From positions 1 to 25,891 of the IMG/VR virus record IMGVR_UViG_3300043499_000141: 25,891 nt of DNA, one strand, 5' to 3'. Both the position numbers and the translations under genes were made by a program. This stretch comes from a virus. Below, piece by piece: positions 2,061 through 25,891 of this stretch. The notes below the pieces were generated by a model. It had not been told where the DNA came from. It saw only the letters and a program-made list of their open reading frames with translations, and ran no database searches. The stretch's first letter is position 1. Each line of letters starts with the position of its first letter.

Positions 2061-3649
2061 AACGGTCCACCAGCCCTTATCGTGTAATCAGTAGCAATCC
2101 AGGTTGTCTCAGATTCAGTAGTAAGGTTTATCATTAAGGACACTGCTGTGCCCATACCCTCACCTGAACTCCAATCTTTCTGTACAAAGTAGCCACCAGA
2201 CCATCTACCTGAACCCCATTGTGCTTCCCCCCACAATGCTACTGCAGATTTTGCTACAGAGCCGGAGGGGAGGGGCATGTCTGGTGCTAAGTAATCGTAT
2301 ACTATCTTAGAGGTATAACCTGCTTTACGCGCACCCATGAACATGGGTCTATATAGTCCTACTTGCTTCTGTGTTGTAGGCGAATTAAAGGTCGAGAAGG
2401 CTTGTTGGCACTGAGAAAGAATGTTAGTTCCACCAGAACCATTAAGTTCGATGTTATCCTTATCACCTACCCATGCGCGATAGACTTTACCGGTCTTATC
2501 TCCAAAGTATGGCATAGTAGATAAACGATGCCAGCATTGAGCATCCATACCTGTAAATGTACACCATCCATTATTAGTAACATTATTAATCAATTGCCCA
2601 TTAGTACCAGCATAAATAGTTGGTATATTAATGACCAATAGATTAATAGCAGGGAAATATTCCATCTCCCAACCGCTAACATCAAAGAGACTTGAAGTCA
2701 AGTCACTAAGCATAGCTTGAATCTTCTTGCTATAAATACTCTTATCAGTCTGATTAACTTGCGTTGATACTAAGACTGTAGATAGAGACATAATACCTGT
2801 ACTTGTGAGATATAGCAAGTCACCAGATATGTCTGTAAAGTATCTACGACCACGAATAGGTGCTCCAATAAAGAATGTACCTATATGCTTCCAAGTTGCT
2901 GCTGTAACAACGTCTGTACCAGCAAAGACTACAGCTTCACCATTAGACGAGAGCGCAACTAGTTTATCATCAGAACCTGATCCTGCATCTATCGTCCAAG
3001 TAGCAAGCGTAGAAAGATAGCCGCCCTTCTTAAAGAACGGTCCAAAGTCAAAGTACTGAGCTACACCATAAACAGCATCTGGTGGCAAGAACCATCCACG
3101 TGTATCATTAATTGGTACAAACCATAGACGATGTTGATGAACAGTAACTTGAATAAAAGTAGCGGGATTTACACTAGCTATCGTACCACTAACGCTTCCG
3201 TTTCCTGCGATAAGTCTCTGTAAACCACCAACGCCGTACCAAATAGGGTTATCAGCACCATTAACAAAAATAGTATGAGTGCCCGCCACATTTGCAAAAC
3301 TCACTTGTTGCCAATAGTTGTTATTCAAAGTGGTCAGAAGGGGGGCAGCTACAGCACCTGGTGTGGTAATATCATACATTTTACCATCACCAAAGGCAAA
3401 GAGATTAGTAGCACCTGTGCGGTTAATCCAACTGCCTATAGTTTCTACTGGACCATTTATACCATATGAATGTACTTGATAACCTTTTCTGACCATACAG
3501 CCATATGGCTGTGGTACAATATTAACTAGCTTAATAGCATCTGTGGGCGGCATTGTCACCAAGTTATCGAAGACGTTTAGTCCCCCAAACGGTGATGGCA
3601 CCGTCTGTATAACATTGGACTTAACAGATGCAGGTAGCGAGGTATTCAT
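2057..3649 (-). CDS. Virion structural protein, tail or head-completion type, beta-rich
   Basis: This 530-residue protein has an N-terminal region (PFGGLNVFDNLVTMPPTDA, then IVPQPYGCMVRKGY) that I recognise as typical of a podovirus structural family in which a Gly-Leu-Asn segment is followed by a Pro/Asp segment and an aromatic Arg-Lys-Gly-Tyr. The rest is rich in beta-prone, aromatic and Gly residues with repeating short blocks (LFAFGDGKMYDIT, AVVFAGTDVVTAATW, LLYLTSTGIMSLS), suggesting a beta-propeller or similar tail component. The start shares a base with the previous stop (TAATG at 3649). A tail-tube or DNA-stabilising role like that of T7 gp12 or P22 gp10 is a guess from operon position, directly after the connector-like gene. 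Confidence 0.8.
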   Translation of the reverse strand: MNTSLPASVKSNVIQTVPSPFGGLNVFDNLVTMPPTDAIKLVNIVPQPYGCMVRKGYQVHSYGINGPVETIGSWINRTGATNLFAFGDGKMYDITTPGAVAAPLLTTLNNNYWQQVSFANVAGTHTIFVNGADNPIWYGVGGLQRLIAGNGSVSGTIASVNPATFIQVTVHQHRLWFVPINDTRGWFLPPDAVYGVAQYFDFGPFFKKGGYLSTLATWTIDAGSGSDDKLVALSSNGEAVVFAGTDVVTAATWKHIGTFFIGAPIRGRRYFTDISGDLLYLTSTGIMSLSTVLVSTQVNQTDKSIYSKKIQAMLSDLTSSLFDVSGWEMEYFPAINLLVINIPTIYAGTNGQLINNVTNNGWCTFTGMDAQCWHRLSTMPYFGDKTGKVYRAWVGDKDNIELNGSGGTNILSQCQQAFSTFNSPTTQKQVGLYRPMFMGARKAGYTSKIVYDYLAPDMPLPSGSVAKSAVALWGEAQWGSGRWSGGYFVQKDWSSGEGMGTAVSLMINLTTESETTWIATDYTIRAGGPL

Positions 3650-4356
3650 TATGTATTCCAGGAACCATCAGGAATTTGCCATGACCCAATAAGACCAGAG
3701 GTAGCAGATGGCGTCAAAGACAACACAGGTGCTCCTTTGTCCTTCCCTATCAGAGTCAGGAACATGCGCATAAAGTCAGCCTTAGGCGCAGTAGTATCAA
3801 AACCCTTTAACTCATAGAACTTCAACCTTAAAAACTTAATGATCAACCATGGCTGATACTGAATCTTATCACCATCTTGTGTTACTATTTCAATCTCAGA
3901 GTAATCAGGTCTAATGACCCAGTTCTTCTTAATGTATTCAATGCTTATATTAGCACCTGAAGATTTAGGAACAGGCAAAAACATCAACTTATCTTGGTAT
4001 ACACGATAGCGCATACCTAAAGCTGCCCCAAGACCATTCTTAAGTCTGCTCCATTCCTGTGGAGATTTCGGCCCAGTTAAGTTACCATTAGCAGTATCAT
4101 CCCATTGAGTTTGATCAATGTAGTAAAGCCAGTCCGCAGGGAGGGGATATCCTTCCTGATCTTTGACTAAGCTAAAGTCGTGGAACTTTGTAAACTGTTG
4201 CCATGGATAATAGAGGTTCAACTCATTGCCAGCACTGTTAAGCAAGGCAACGAGTTGAGTAACCTGTGGATCATCTGTTACGAGAGACGGAGGTGCTGGC
4301 AGCCCTAATTCTCCGGCTACTTGTTTCACCAAGGTTAGCGCTGACCAGTAGTCCAT
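3649..4356 (-). CDS. Head-tail connector (adaptor)-like protein
   Basis: The 235-residue protein begins MDYWSALTLVKQVAGELGLP and contains WQQFTKFHDFSLV, YPLPADWLYYIDQTQWD and WSRLKNGLGAALGMRYRVY. This pattern (helical N-terminus, aromatic loop, then a substrate-binding-like strand region) is what I know from podovirus adaptor or T7 gp11-like tail tubular A proteins that sit below the portal. It precedes the larger beta-rich structural protein, as expected for a gp11/gp12-like pair. One base separates its ATG from the stop of the preceding gene. The exact family is not certain without a profile search. Confidence 0.75.
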   Translation of the reverse strand: MDYWSALTLVKQVAGELGLPAPPSLVTDDPQVTQLVALLNSAGNELNLYYPWQQFTKFHDFSLVKDQEGYPLPADWLYYIDQTQWDDTANGNLTGPKSPQEWSRLKNGLGAALGMRYRVYQDKLMFLPVPKSSGANISIEYIKKNWVIRPDYSEIEIVTQDGDKIQYQPWLIIKFLRLKFYELKGFDTTAPKADFMRMFLTLIGKDKGAPVLSLTPSATSGLIGSWQIPDGSWNT

Positions 4357-4357
4357 A

Positions 4358-4918
4358 TTATGCCTCAGCCTTTTGAGCTGCCATTAACTTAGCAACTTGA
4401 TCCTTAAGAACCTGAATTTCTGAATCACGCTTCTCTAGTTCATTTTTCAACATCGTAATGGGGGCGGCAGATTTGGCTGATTCTAGATAAGCTACAGCCT
4501 TTTGCTTCATGGAATTAAAGCCCATAAAGTGTCTACTATGTGTATCAGAGATACCAGCCAGTTGCTCAAGCGTAAAGACATTAAGTGCCTTAAGCTCAGC
4601 AATCTGAGATACAGTCAGGAACGGCACCTCTTCAAGCGGTGTCCCCTCCTGTGCAGGAGTAAGCTTCCTTTGAAAACGATCCCATTGTGCTGGGAATCTG
4701 TCTTTATAGGTTTGACTTGCTTTATTGACAAGAACGTCTCTAGATCCAGGCGTAATGATCTTTACCATGGCGACTTCATTAAAGATCGGTCGTCCTTCGA
4801 CGGCAGACTTTGATTCATCTTTCACGGCAGTCATATAGAACTGTACAAAGAGACGTTTGTCATCCTCCGACTGTATAGAGTCGGAGGTTACAACACCATC
4901 ATACTCAGGTGTAGGCAT
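4358..4918 (-). CDS. Conserved phage protein, C-terminal coiled coil
   Basis: This 186-residue protein belongs to a family common in podoviruses next to capsid genes, recognisable by VAMVKIITPGSRDVLV, then RFPAQWDRF, then a segment with GTPLEEVPFLTVSQIAEL and LNVFTLEQLAGISD. The last 35 residues (MLKNELEKRDSEIQVLKDQ) form a clear heptad coiled coil. The function of the family is not established to my knowledge. The helix-hairpin-like VFTLEQLAGISD segment could bind protein or DNA. The ATG directly follows the stop of the Gly-rich protein gene (TAA then ATG). Confidence 0.85.
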   Translation of the reverse strand: MPTPEYDGVVTSDSIQSEDDKRLFVQFYMTAVKDESKSAVEGRPIFNEVAMVKIITPGSRDVLVNKASQTYKDRFPAQWDRFQRKLTPAQEGTPLEEVPFLTVSQIAELKALNVFTLEQLAGISDTHSRHFMGFNSMKQKAVAYLESAKSAAPITMLKNELEKRDSEIQVLKDQVAKLMAAQKAEA

Positions 4919-15008: not shown

Positions 15009-15350
15009 ATGTCTAAAGTTACAATTGGATCTTTTTCTAAGAATATTATTGCAACTCAAAGTAACTTGTCTAATCAAGAAGTGTTAGATCTAGTTTTGAA
15101 AGAATTTCCTAATGCTAAAACATCACTAAGTTGTATTGCTTGGTACAAAAGTGATATGAAAAAACATAACTATAAAGTATCAAAGTTTCAAGAAAGAACT
15201 ATAGAAGTTATTGAACTAGAACTAATTGCTGCTAATGACAAAGTTCAAATGTTACAAGATGAACTAGAAAGTCTTAAGTCTTCTCAAGAAGAAAGTGAAT
15301 TGTTAATGTTGGCAACACTTGCAGCAAAGTACAACAAAGAAGTAGTCTAA
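15009..15350 (+). CDS. Small phage protein A, paralogue of the 15914 gene
   Basis: This 113-residue protein has an N-terminal domain with SNQEVLDLVLKEFPNAKTSL followed by CIAWYKSDMKK, then a predicted coiled coil (ELELIAANDKVQMLQDELES) and a C-terminal LAAKYNKEVV. The Ala-Lys-Thr-Ser-Leu-x-Cys-Ile-Ala-Trp-Tyr-Lys-Ser core is a motif I have met in phage proteins of unknown function. The whole layout is shared with the protein encoded at 15914. The gene is much more AT-rich than that paralogue. It has its own promoter, leader hairpin and terminator, so it is a single-gene early unit. Basic N-terminus and coiled coil would suit a DNA-binding dimer, but this is inference. The ribosome site is weak. 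Confidence 0.85.
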   Translation: MSKVTIGSFSKNIIATQSNLSNQEVLDLVLKEFPNAKTSLSCIAWYKSDMKKHNYKVSKFQERTIEVIELELIAANDKVQMLQDELESLKSSQEESELLMLATLAAKYNKEVV

Positions 15351-15913: not shown

Positions 15914-16279
15914 ATGTCAATTGGTCAATATGCTCGTGAGCTCATCATTGCCTCCCCCTCCGCATCAAATCAAGAAATCCTGGACCAAGTAAAGGCCAGG
16001 TTCACGGAAGCAAAAACAAGTCTTGCTTGTATTGCCTGGTATAAATCAAATATGAAAAAGAACGGAACAAAGCAATCTGCCCCCGCTCAGAGAACCCTGG
16101 AACTCGTTGAAGATGAGATTGTGCAAACCAAGTTGAAGTTGGCATCACTTGAAGAAGAGTACAAAGAAATGCTTGAAGCGGATAGGGCAAATGCGATGGC
16201 CATGATTGAAGAGCTTGCAAACAAGTATGGTAAGAAGGTGGTAGATGCTGAAGAGCAACAGGAAGAGGAACAGGAATAA
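15914..16279 (+). CDS. Small phage protein B, paralogue of the 15009 gene
   Basis: This 121-residue protein shares its full layout with the product of 15009: SNQEILDQVKARF and AKTSLACIAWYKSNMKK near the N-terminus, then RTLELVEDE, a coiled coil (KLKLASLEEEYKEMLEAD), and LANKYGKKVVD before an acidic Glu/Gln tail that the first protein lacks. The AAGGAAATCAAA before the ATG is a good ribosome site. It is the first gene after promoter P1 and leads a run of small genes. Base composition is clearly less AT-rich than in the paralogue, so the two copies diverged long ago or came from different sources. Function is unknown; an early regulator or DNA-binding role is a guess. Confidence 0.88.
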   Translation: MSIGQYARELIIASPSASNQEILDQVKARFTEAKTSLACIAWYKSNMKKNGTKQSAPAQRTLELVEDEIVQTKLKLASLEEEYKEMLEADRANAMAMIEELANKYGKKVVDAEEQQEEEQE

Positions 16280-22948: not shown

Positions 22949-23506
22949 ATGTTGATTGCATTAGACTTTGAATCGGAGGCCATTGAGCCTCGTCCTAAGT
23001 ATCCACCTGTTCCCGTTGGCTTAGCGGTAATGCCAGATGGCAATGAAGGATGGTACAATGCCTGGGGACATCCTTCATTCAATAACACAACAAAAGATAG
23101 TACAGGTAGAGCACTTGAAAGAGTACTTAGTAATGAAGAAGATGAATTCATCTTTCATAATGCACCATTTGACTGTGACATTATACAAACTCATTTTAAT
23201 ATTGTGGTTCCTTGGGATAGAGTACATGACACTATGCTTATGGCATTTATGCTAGATCCGTATGGGGAGCTGTCACTGAAGCCTCTTGCAGAGCGTCATC
23301 TCGGTGAGCCCCCCACTGAACAAGAAGAAGTAAGACAGTGGCTAGTAGCTCATGGTATATGCAGTGCCAATGCCAAAGACTGGGGTGCACATATAGCTAA
23401 GGCTCCAGGCGACCTGGTAGGACGTTACGCTATAGGCGACGTGCGAAAGACATTAAACCTCTACAAGTTCTTTAAGCCTAAGCTTGCTCATCGGAGGATG
23501 ATATGA
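22949..23506 (+). CDS. DNA polymerase I-type 3'-5' exonuclease, separate gene
   Basis: The 185-residue protein is the proofreading domain of a family A polymerase. D6 and E8 in ALDFESEA form Exo I; N71 and D75 in HNAPFD form Exo II; Y160 and D164 in YAIGDVRKT form Exo III, so the DEDDy set is complete. LSLKPLAERHLG (108-119) is the usual loop before Exo III. The ATG has AAAGG upstream in the context CTTAAAGGTATAAGAT. It ends with a four-base overlap (ATGA) into the polymerase gene, so the two halves are made as separate chains unless the ribosome shifts frame. Confidence 0.93.
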   Translation: MLIALDFESEAIEPRPKYPPVPVGLAVMPDGNEGWYNAWGHPSFNNTTKDSTGRALERVLSNEEDEFIFHNAPFDCDIIQTHFNIVVPWDRVHDTMLMAFMLDPYGELSLKPLAERHLGEPPTEQEEVRQWLVAHGICSANAKDWGAHIAKAPGDLVGRYAIGDVRKTLNLYKFFKPKLAHRRMI

Positions 23507-24825
23507 ATGCATACGAGCGAGAGATGCGCCTTATGCCACATGTCATCAAGATGGAGGAACGCGGCATACATATAGATGTCCCCCTCCTCCGCACTGACAT
23601 GAACTTCTACTTTAACAAGATGTCAGAGATGGATGACTTCATCTCAATGAAGTGTAAGCGTAAGGTGGATGTTGATAGTAATGATCAGTTAGCAGATGGA
23701 ATAGAGTTTGCTGGTCTATCTAAAGGCTTTGCGTCTACACCTACAGGTAGGCGGTCTACATCTAAAGAATCATTAATGGGGGCGATAGCTGACCCCGAAT
23801 TGCTAGGTGCTTTGCTGATACGCGGATCACTAGCTACTTGCCTTAGAACCTTCTATCAACCTTGGTATTCTGCAGCTCGTAAGACAGGAAAGCTCTATGT
23901 CAAATGGAATCAGATCAGAAATTATTCGGATACTGGAGCAAGAACGGGAAGATTTAGCAGCTCACCTAACTTTCAGAATGTGCCCACAGACTGGGATAAA
24001 TTGCTTGTACAACTTGGAAGCATTGGATATAACCTTAACTTTCCATTGCCACAAATGCGGAAGTATATTATCCCTGCGCCTGGATACGTTCTTATTGGAA
24101 GAGACTATAGATCACAAGAGATGCGACTGTTAGCGCACTTCACTCAAGGGGCGCTAATGGAAGCGCTCATAGCTAATCCTGAGTTGGATGTGCATGAGAT
24201 CGCAGGGAAGATGGCAAACATCTCGAGAAAACTGTCAAAGACAATGGGCTTCGCAATTCTGTATGGTGCAGGTGCAGCTCGAGTAGCAGAACAATTAGGA
24301 ATCACAGTATATGAATCTAGAGACCTTAAAGCACGTTATCTTAGGGCACTACCAGAGATTAAGAAGTTCACTAAAGAAGTCAATGACAAAGCAGCATATG
24401 GTGAAGGAATCACTACTCTGGGTGGCCGTTACTATAGTATCCAGTCTCCTGCTATTGTCAAAGGGGTTCTGAAGTCCTTTGAGTATAAGCTGGTGAACTA
24501 CAAGATTCAAGGCTCAGCAGCTGATCACACAAAGGAAGCCATGTATCAGTATGCAACTACAACAAAGACTGGACATCTCCTACTGACTGTCCATGACCAA
24601 AACGTCATTGAAGTGCCAAAAGATGATATAATGTCAGAACGCAAGATCTTTGCTGATGCAATGAATGGATCCTTTGCGGATGTGCTTAAAGTCAAAATGT
24701 TATCTGATGAGTGCATAGGTTATGACTTTGCAAACCTCAGGTCATTTGACGAAGGCGAAAGAATAGATAGTCTTTTAGGACGAAGCGAAAGGAATTATGA
24801 TGGATATCAAACCAATACTGTTTAA
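23503..24825 (+). CDS. Family A DNA polymerase, polymerase domain
   Basis: A 440-residue polymerase without its own exonuclease. TGRFSSSPNFQNVP (148-161) is the conserved template-binding segment. Motif A is GRDYRSQEMRLLAHF with catalytic D201. Motif B has R242, K246, F250 and Y254-G255 in the exact spacing of the O-helix. Motif C reads LLTVHDQNVIEV, with H364 and D365, but Q366 in place of the usual Glu. GGAGG five bases before the ATG supports the start. The final 29 bases overlap the nuclease gene that follows. It should replicate the phage genome together with the exonuclease encoded immediately upstream. Confidence 0.93.
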   Translation: MNAYEREMRLMPHVIKMEERGIHIDVPLLRTDMNFYFNKMSEMDDFISMKCKRKVDVDSNDQLADGIEFAGLSKGFASTPTGRRSTSKESLMGAIADPELLGALLIRGSLATCLRTFYQPWYSAARKTGKLYVKWNQIRNYSDTGARTGRFSSSPNFQNVPTDWDKLLVQLGSIGYNLNFPLPQMRKYIIPAPGYVLIGRDYRSQEMRLLAHFTQGALMEALIANPELDVHEIAGKMANISRKLSKTMGFAILYGAGAARVAEQLGITVYESRDLKARYLRALPEIKKFTKEVNDKAAYGEGITTLGGRYYSIQSPAIVKGVLKSFEYKLVNYKIQGSAADHTKEAMYQYATTTKTGHLLLTVHDQNVIEVPKDDIMSERKIFADAMNGSFADVLKVKMLSDECIGYDFANLRSFDEGERIDSLLGRSERNYDGYQTNTV

Positions 24826-25468
24826 TCAGCCATGGGGCTTTACAAAGCTCGATGTGTTCCGAACTTGTCATGCCAAGTTCAAGTACCAGTTCATTGACAA
24901 GTTGCCACAGAAAAGCAGTGCAGCACTTGAACGTGGAGGTGAAATTCATGAAGCCATTGAAAGCTATCTTAATGGATGGGCGAGTACACTTCCTGAGGAA
25001 GTGGAAGCATGGAAAGATGCGTTGGACCTTATTAAAAAGGAGGATTATCATGGAGAAAAAGCCATCGGAATCGCGCGTGATTGGAGAATCCTCCCCGATT
25101 GGTTCCACAAAGACACCTGGCTCAGAGTCAAAATGGATACCTACTATCGGAGCAAGCAAAGACTCCACGTCATCGACTACAAGTCAGGAAAGTATCGCAT
25201 CCCCTCCACCGATCAAGTCGAGCTCTACGCCATCGCAGGAGTCTCCATCTACCCAGACATTGACGAAGTCGAAGCCGAGTTCTGGTTCATCGACACTGGT
25301 GACGTCTATAAAAAACTTTATCAAAGGCAAGAGCTGATTGAGCTTAGAAAGAAATATGAGAATGAATCGGATGCAATGTATGTTGAAGCTCAATGGCTCC
25401 CACAACCATCTAGTGAGTGCCGTTGGTGCCCTTATAGCAAGACTAAGGGGGGGCCATGTCGATACTAA
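24797..25468 (+). CDS. Cas4/RecB-like PD-(D/E)XK nuclease with probable Fe-S site
   Basis: The 223-residue protein matches phage RecB-family exonucleases. C24 in FRTCHAKFKY and C208, C211, C221 in ECRWCPYSKTKGGPC give the Cys-Xn-Cys-x2-Cys-x9-Cys set that holds a 4Fe-4S cluster in Cas4 and AddB. ALERGGEIHEAIE (43-55) has the conserved His. LRVKMDTYYR gives D114, and VIDYKSGK gives D127 and K129 with Q140 after it, the PD-(D/E)XK core. AAAGGA precedes the ATG. It overlaps the polymerase by 29 bases and the VRR-NUC gene by 13. The sequence from about 25070 to 25310 is richer in G and C than its flanks. A run of seven G (25447-25453) lies just before the next ATG. Confidence 0.88.
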   Translation: MMDIKPILFNQPWGFTKLDVFRTCHAKFKYQFIDKLPQKSSAALERGGEIHEAIESYLNGWASTLPEEVEAWKDALDLIKKEDYHGEKAIGIARDWRILPDWFHKDTWLRVKMDTYYRSKQRLHVIDYKSGKYRIPSTDQVELYAIAGVSIYPDIDEVEAEFWFIDTGDVYKKLYQRQELIELRKKYENESDAMYVEAQWLPQPSSECRWCPYSKTKGGPCRY

Positions 25469-25830
25469 AGAAGGAAGCAGAGATAGAGTTCGCGTCAAGA
25501 GTCATAGCCAAAGGAAGCAAATGCACACTACTCAAGATCCAGGGAGTGAAGGGGTGGCCAGACAGGATACTGCTGACCCCGAACGGGAACGTCGCATTCC
25601 TCGAATTCAAGACCCCTCTTGGGGAGCTAGCACCGCTGCAAACGCACCATCTAGTGCAGCTCAGGGAAATGGGATACCCGATCTTCGTTCCGAGGTCGAG
25701 CGAGCAATTCAAGCAGATTATGTCGCTAATGCTTTCAGCGCCCCGATCTGGCAGCCTAGACCATATCAGGTACGCGGCGTCGATTGGCTCCTACGACCTG
25801 AAAGTGCTCTCTTCTTACCTCCTGGGCTAG
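25456..25830 (+). CDS. VRR-NUC nuclease
   Basis: This 124-residue protein carries a VRR-NUC (PD-(D/E)XK) nuclease domain in residues 1-90: Glu in KKEAEIEFASRV, GWPDRILLTPNG with P35-D36, AFLEFKTPLGELAPLQ with E50, K52 and Q62, then LREMGYPIFV. In phages such proteins often stand next to SNF2-type helicases and act on branched DNA. The last about 30 residues (SAPRSGSLDHIRYAASIGS) look like an out-of-frame reading of the helicase that overlaps it. The stretch is rich in G and C, as expected if two frames are under constraint. Confidence 0.85.
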   Translation: MSILKKEAEIEFASRVIAKGSKCTLLKIQGVKGWPDRILLTPNGNVAFLEFKTPLGELAPLQTHHLVQLREMGYPIFVPRSSEQFKQIMSLMLSAPRSGSLDHIRYAASIGSYDLKVLSSYLLG

Positions 25831-25891
25831 GCAAGACAGCGATGGGCCTTGCGGCTATCTTGATGCTCAGGAAGATGAAGCTTAACTATAA
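25521..25891 (+). CDS. Superfamily 2 (SNF2-like) helicase, 5' part, overlapping frame
   Basis: This frame is open from an ATG at 25521 to the right edge (123 codons seen). The end carries IWQPRPYQVRGVDWLL, a Q-motif-like start of SNF2 helicases, then ESALFLPPGLGKTAMGLAA, a clear Walker A loop. AAGGA five bases before 25521 is a good ribosome site. The only other in-frame start before the Q-motif is a GTG at about 25554, so the gene must overlap the VRR-NUC gene by at least about 275 bases in the -1 frame, unless the two are joined by frameshifting. The first about 75 residues are low-complexity and carry no recognisable domain. Confidence 0.75.
   Translation, partial: MHTTQDPGSEGVARQDTADPERERRIPRIQDPSWGASTAANAPSSAAQGNGIPDLRSEVERAIQADYVANAFSAPIWQPRPYQVRGVDWLLRPESALFLPPGLGKTAMGLAAILMLRKMKLNY

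Follow-up and report, generated by a model that had tools for sequence, protein, structure and literature searches.

Organization of the locus

The window, the whole stretch of DNA analysed here, is a 25.9-kb IMG/VR virus record (25,891 nucleotides), and all positions are given in window numbering. As it carries head, portal, terminase, polymerase, ligase and helicase/primase genes, it is a fragment of a tailed phage. The features at its 3' end are listed below.

24797-25468, + strand: PD-(D/E)xK exonuclease gene (PDDEXK_1, RecB/Cas4-like), overlapping the VRR-NUC start by 13 nt
25456-25830, + strand: VRR-NUC nuclease gene, 124 aa, PD-(D/E)xK fold
25511-25515, + strand: predicted Shine-Dalgarno sequence AAGGA for the helicase, spacing 5 nt, duplex energy -5.6
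25521-25891, + strand: 5' part of an SNF2-type helicase gene, which continues past the window end
25521-25523, + strand: predicted helicase start ATG, formed by the last A of nuclease codon 22 (AAA, Lys) and the TG of the invariant Cys23 codon (TGC)
25521-25830, + strand: dual-frame overlap of 310 nt, in which the helicase is read in the -1 (= +2) frame with respect to VRR-NUC
25554-25556, + strand: alternative in-frame helicase start GTG (TTG in relative L003, no start codon in L010)
25561-25611, + strand: nuclease active-site codons Asp36 (25561), Glu50 (25603) and Lys52 (25609), all within the overlap

The original prediction had described about 300 bases open in both a VRR-NUC and a helicase frame, with an ATG at 25521 served by AAGGA. 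Both ORFs were confirmed, as were the 310-nt overlap and the AAGGA 5 nt before the ATG. On sequence comparison the GTG at 25554 is a weaker start candidate than the ATG and is not conserved. Elsewhere in the window, a family A DNA polymerase is present as two ORFs, 3'-5' exonuclease (22949-23506) and polymerase (23503-24825), which share a 4-nt ATGA overlap.

Nuclease and helicase proteins

The nuclease matched phrog_93 (endonuclease) with E=4e-14 over residues 5-96, i.e. to about 25743, in agreement with the earlier view that the nuclease frame is convincing to about 25725. The match to Pfam VRR_NUC (PF08774) had E=1.9e-4 and 21.9 bits, just under the gathering score of 23.8, and PF08774 was matched by 12 of 20 members of the group of relatives described below at E below 0.001. 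Residues E7, E11, P35, D36, E50, K52 and Q62, corresponding to the E-PD-ExK-Q motif described for VRR-NUC nucleases (PMC4103454), were invariant across 20 aligned nucleases. AlphaFold pLDDT values were about 83-94 for residues 1-90, 77 for residues 91-100 and no higher than 53 from residue 101 onward, which delimits a predicted structured core of residues 1-96 (25456-25743) and a floppy C-terminal tail (25744-25830). The closest solved folds to this model were 4qbn and 4qbo, with 4qbn the best Foldseek match (TM 0.80 by target length). Judged by the model and the invariant residues, the protein has the VRR-NUC fold and catalytic residue set. The single-domain VRR-NUC members psNUC, stNUC and saNUC are dimers which cut four-way junctions (PMC4103454), and by analogy the phage nuclease is a putative junction cutter. 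While the fold and E-PD-ExK-Q residues are alike, the phage protein differs from these three in its additional C-terminal tail and in that its gene is overprinted by the helicase across most of the core.

Read from the ATG at 25521, the helicase matched phrog_62 from residue 73, and its conserved core begins at Trp77 (25749-25751), which bears out the claim that helicase sequence is recognisable by about 25750. Residues 1-76 form an extension ahead of this core, and the Walker A motif lies at about 25818-25838. The window itself carries only the beginning of the helicase; in the near-identical contig L002 the full protein is 523 aa from the ATG, with Pfam SNF2-rel_dom at residues 82-339, and PF00176 (SNF2-related domain) and PF00271 (C-terminal helicase domain) were found in 15/15 and 13/15 member helicases, respectively. 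A helicase structure model gave pLDDT of about 25-37 at residues 1-70 and under 50 for residues 1-72, with confident values from the onset of the SNF2 domain; as the model was built on a 15-sequence alignment, these low values are suggestive of disorder. On this model the helicase tail is probably disordered.

Between the ATG at 25521 and Walker A the GTG at 25554 is the sole further in-frame start. No ATG, GTG or TTG occurs in the window helicase frame from 25557 to Walker A, and the next ATG, at 25842, falls past Walker A, such that a start there would lose the motif. With standard start codons, the helicase must therefore begin within or upstream of the nuclease gene. The statement that ATG 25521 and GTG 25554 are the only in-frame starts was correct as far as Walker A but not in the other direction, where the window frame is open to 25338 and includes several starts within the preceding gene. 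In relatives, helicase-frame stops separate those upstream starts from the homologue of 25521. In L003 such stops lie 4 and 16 codons before the ATG, which excludes the upstream starts of the open window frame as the conserved starts.

Relatives with the same gene order

Relatives were collected by scanning IMG/VR with helicase and nuclease alignments. Twenty-five members, window included, share the gene order and have the helicase in the -1 frame, 23 of which were distinct after near-copy removal; all of the group relatives are metagenomic contigs (uncultivated phages). A nucleotide search of phage sequences with window positions 23503-25891 produced no match, and a scan of genome contigs returned distant helicases only. 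L002, an independent contig which is 99% identical, has both frames and the same ATG, and L003 (nuclease 75% and helicase 84% identical) aligns without gaps across the overlap and again has the same ATG. A frame change without an intervening stop resembles an indel error, such that a base could be missing or extra in a gene pair which in truth abuts or is fused. The two indel-free contigs show the same two frames, however, and the whole group has the same relation, so that sequencing or assembly error is refuted and its remaining probability is negligible.

The helicase frame was open from the homologous site to the core in 18/25 members (16/23 distinct). The homologous site carries ATG in 16 of these 18 (14/16 distinct) and GTG in L131 and L115, each of which has an ATG 9 codons upstream in open frame. 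Where the homologous start is ATG, its A is the last base of a nuclease codon and its TG belongs to the invariant cysteine, and helicase-frame stops were found ahead of the start site in 17 of the 18. The closed group (n=7; L011, L012, L013, L128, L094, L096 and L134) has 1-3 helicase-frame stops in the stretch and a later helicase start, at codon 44 from the site in six members and at about codon 25 in L134, still within the nuclease ORF. Relatives with a switched start serve as natural controls, which makes constraint on each frame measurable. Beyond the group, in L139 and in the wider family (L016-L086), the helicase start coincides with the end of the nuclease gene or lies slightly within it, for the most part in the +1 frame, and wider-family helicases mostly begin 9-19 codons before the conserved Trp. 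From these sequences, a helicase start at or near the nuclease end looks like the ordinary arrangement. Relatives with a plain non-overlapping start had been named in the original prediction as contrary evidence; L139, with a helicase 50% identical, comes close to this, but it lies outside the -1-frame group.

Some members differed in other respects. L129 has about 250 additional bases between the exonuclease and nuclease genes compared with L130. The helicase of L142 (within 3001-4565) has a broken frame: when it is read from its start, 22 stops are met. An indel or decay is the probable cause.

Constraint on the helicase frame within the overlap

Each helicase codon in the overlap consists of the third base of one nuclease codon and two bases of the next, and a T before AA, AG or GA therefore produces a stop. 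As null model, nuclease codons were re-drawn synonymously using the codon usage of neighbouring genes; the upstream exonuclease gene (24797-25468) served as codon-usage control. When the window's own nuclease codons were treated in this way, the 43 codons following the site stayed open in 5.9% of re-draws, and the probability of chance openness along the entire stretch as far as the helicase domain was about 0.003. Openness of the 43 codons by locus ranged from 2 to 27% of re-draws, a summed expectation of about 1.5/23 compared with 16/23 observed. In the open group a stop-making T was found at 0/121 positions versus 38 expected, a count which is partly true by definition as the groups were defined by openness. 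The closed group had 15/54 versus 18 expected, and nuclease codons upstream of the start in the open group had 37/110 versus 36.5 expected. No such circularity applies to the number of open members, to this upstream control, to the amino acid composition or to the evidence from start codons and Shine-Dalgarno sequences.

When compared with re-draws which remained open, the helicase frame of the open group was enriched in D+E (0.177 vs 0.106, z 7.6) and G (0.110 vs 0.065, z 7.0) and depleted in K+R (0.084 vs 0.150, z -6.7) and hydrophobic residues (0.147 vs 0.200, z -5.4), with all z-values inflated by kinship among the sequences. No comparable composition deviation was observed in the closed group (largest absolute z 2.0). 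Third-base G was enriched only before A, where it gives Asp/Glu (112 vs 64.7), and before G, where it gives Gly (68 vs 36.1); it was depleted before C, where it gives Ala (45 vs 61), and on account of this depletion a shared G-rich base bias was rejected as the cause of the composition. The suggestion that the G/C-rich composition of the stretch fits double constraint needs correction, in that the bias consists in the avoidance of particular third bases and not in a high G+C content as such. The composition deviation had the same direction in all 16 open lineages, with synonymous codons near saturation between deep lineages; the signal was weak in the window alone (z 1.3) and almost absent in L155.

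Per codon, third positions had diverged in the overlap almost as far as in the neighbouring gene (0.559 vs 0.594). Measured by codon identity or position counts, conservation of the tail residues was just slightly above that of the control gene and the exact sequence was hardly kept, and for this reason a simple conservation test alone would miss the constraint. Identity in the -1 frame was also weak evidence, with 0.303 versus a null of 0.251 in the open group and a similar 0.301 versus 0.269 in the closed group. Codon-position conservation among relatives, which had been put forward as a check, was weak at the level of residues, but stop avoidance and amino-acid-level choice of third bases were seen in the open group only. 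Taken from the sequence comparisons, selection acts on the helicase-frame protein within the overlap, at the amino-acid level, and in the open group only.

These data bear on whether the helicase could instead begin near its core at a non-standard start codon, with the upstream openness an accident of composition. The late starts of the wider family, close to the conserved Trp, would fit such a reading, and the tail is not required for the SNF2 domain as such. The window is devoid of standard start codons from 25557 to Walker A, however, and both the excess of members open from the homologous start and the composition selection confined to the same stretch make a late start most unlikely.

Start signals and movement of the helicase start

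Shine-Dalgarno sequences were scored as anti-Shine-Dalgarno duplexes, on which scale about 11% of background positions reach -5. At the homologous start (site 1) the score was -5.3 or stronger in 14/14 distinct open members with ATG and -2.7 or weaker in 7/7 closed members. At the later position (site 2), ATG or GTG with a score of -4.3 or stronger was found in 6/7 closed members, and no start codon was present in any open-group member. Open and closed forms interchange at least four times on the helicase tree. Across four independent tree contrasts the start signal differed in the expected direction or showed no difference, with none against, and significance is out of reach at n=4; in most pairings the signal changed along with the form. 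The predicted helicase start has shifted among relatives between three or more positions within the nuclease gene, and a separate start codon is present at each.

The original prediction had also offered a -1 frameshift which fuses the two products into one nuclease-helicase protein. Consistent with this, 25/25 members have their helicase in the -1 frame, and in the window the frames overlap with no nuclease stop ahead of the helicase core. A constant frame relation is nevertheless expected regardless, as gain or loss of one base disrupts one or other member of an overlapping pair, and most wider-family helicases lie in the +1 frame instead. The window lacks any canonical slippery heptamer (X XXY YYZ) in its nuclease frame, as do most relatives, and no such heptamer is conserved. 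Nearly all relatives keep a start codon and Shine-Dalgarno sequence at one or other site inside the nuclease gene, which a fusion would not need. We consider a programmed frameshift extremely improbable.

L009 and L013 share several hundred bases of exonuclease DNA at 95-100% identity, and their helicases are 73-85% identical. Their nuclease/helicase-start segment, which extends from about 80 nt ahead of the start site to about 240 nt past it, was just 40-73% identical. From its sequence this segment looks as though recombination had replaced it as a block, with a switch between the open and closed overlap. L142 and L154 had the opposite pattern, a near-identical segment next to diverged exonuclease genes.

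Proposed expression of the gene pair

The arrangement is very probably a true long out-of-frame overlap, in which nuclease and helicase are separately initiated from one message, and both proteins would be translated. Ribosomes would initiate at 25456 for the nuclease and, in an independent event, at the ATG at 25521 for the helicase, the latter directed by a Shine-Dalgarno sequence written in nuclease codons. The helicase would thereby gain an N-terminal tail of about 75 residues which is a -1 reading of the nuclease core. One of the two alternatives in the original prediction, namely that about 75 N-terminal residues of the helicase re-read the nuclease gene, is now supported in relatives by the start, the Shine-Dalgarno sequence, the open frame and the amino-acid-level selection. 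The tail is acidic, glycine-rich and unfolded by prediction, and would be free to vary provided that its frame stays open and its composition is kept. Conversely, the nuclease ORF continues through the beginning of the helicase domain with a floppy tail of about 28 residues. As each folded domain sits opposite the loose tail of the other protein, both frames can be kept.

An overlap of this kind would keep two recombination enzymes linked and co-expressed, and may hold the nuclease-helicase pair together during recombination, the L009/L013 segment appearing as if exchanged as a block. A putative junction nuclease and the DNA translocase of the recombination module would in this way be tied together in sequence. 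It is also conceivable, if rather unlikely, that the acidic tail binds its own nuclease, for example on the positively charged DNA-binding face. If so, the same bases would write a nuclease and its binding partner or inhibitor, and tail binding would physically couple junction cutting to the helicase.

Relation to known overlaps and consequences for annotation

Viral overlapping (overprinted) genes have been surveyed (PMC8903798, PMC8227390, PMC6195259). The phage pair resembles these in same-strand dual-frame coding and in an extra protein part predicted to be disordered. Overlaps in DNA viruses are short, with a median of 15.6 nt per genome (IQR 8.5-61), and most +2-frame overlaps are 1 or 4 nt (PMC8903798); in contrast the phage genes overlap by 310 nt, unusually long for two enzyme genes in double-stranded DNA viruses, where overlaps are mostly of a few bases (PMC8903798). 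In addition, no new protein has been born here, and it is the start of an old enzyme which appears extended back into an old neighbouring enzyme gene. While overlapping genes of eukaryotic viruses are enriched in Arg, Ser and Pro (PMC6195259), the phage tail is Asp/Glu/Gly-enriched and Lys/Arg-poor.

Phage neighbours with short overlaps (PV036425; L016-L086) have the same two genes in the same order with a start at or inside the nuclease 3' end, but here the overlap is confined to the end of the nuclease gene and the relative frame is usually +1. The helicase CDS also begins within the VRR-NUC ORF in Stenotrophomonas phage AXL_3 and Pseudoxanthomonas phage PW916 (194-nt overlap), again in the +1 relative frame and with the start further downstream. 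Overlapping genes are thus already known as a kind; a VRR-NUC/helicase pair with a shifting start was not found described, in a limited literature search made partly on titles and abstracts.

Prodigal permits at most 60 bp of same-strand overlap (PMC2848648), and with this limit such pairs will lose the nuclease or be given a truncated helicase. The nuclease was unannotated in 3/3 public records checked with a helicase start well inside a VRR-NUC ORF, which exposes a blind spot of annotation, namely long same-strand overlaps missed by the gene caller. The unannotated VRR-NUC ORFs, each of which runs across the annotated helicase start, are as follows.

L162 (Stenotrophomonas phage AXL_3): 885-1298
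L004 (PW916): about 2989 to 3414
L163 (MW202621): 945-1427

A family of small paralogous proteins was also observed, with two copies in the window (15009-15350 and 15914-16279) and one 3' of the helicase in each of L002 (5726-6109) and L003 (5727-6401). They share a motif around 'N-Q-E-(V/I)-L ... A-(K/R)-T-S-x-(S/A)-C-I-A-(W/Y)-Y' and match phrog_38698/17767.
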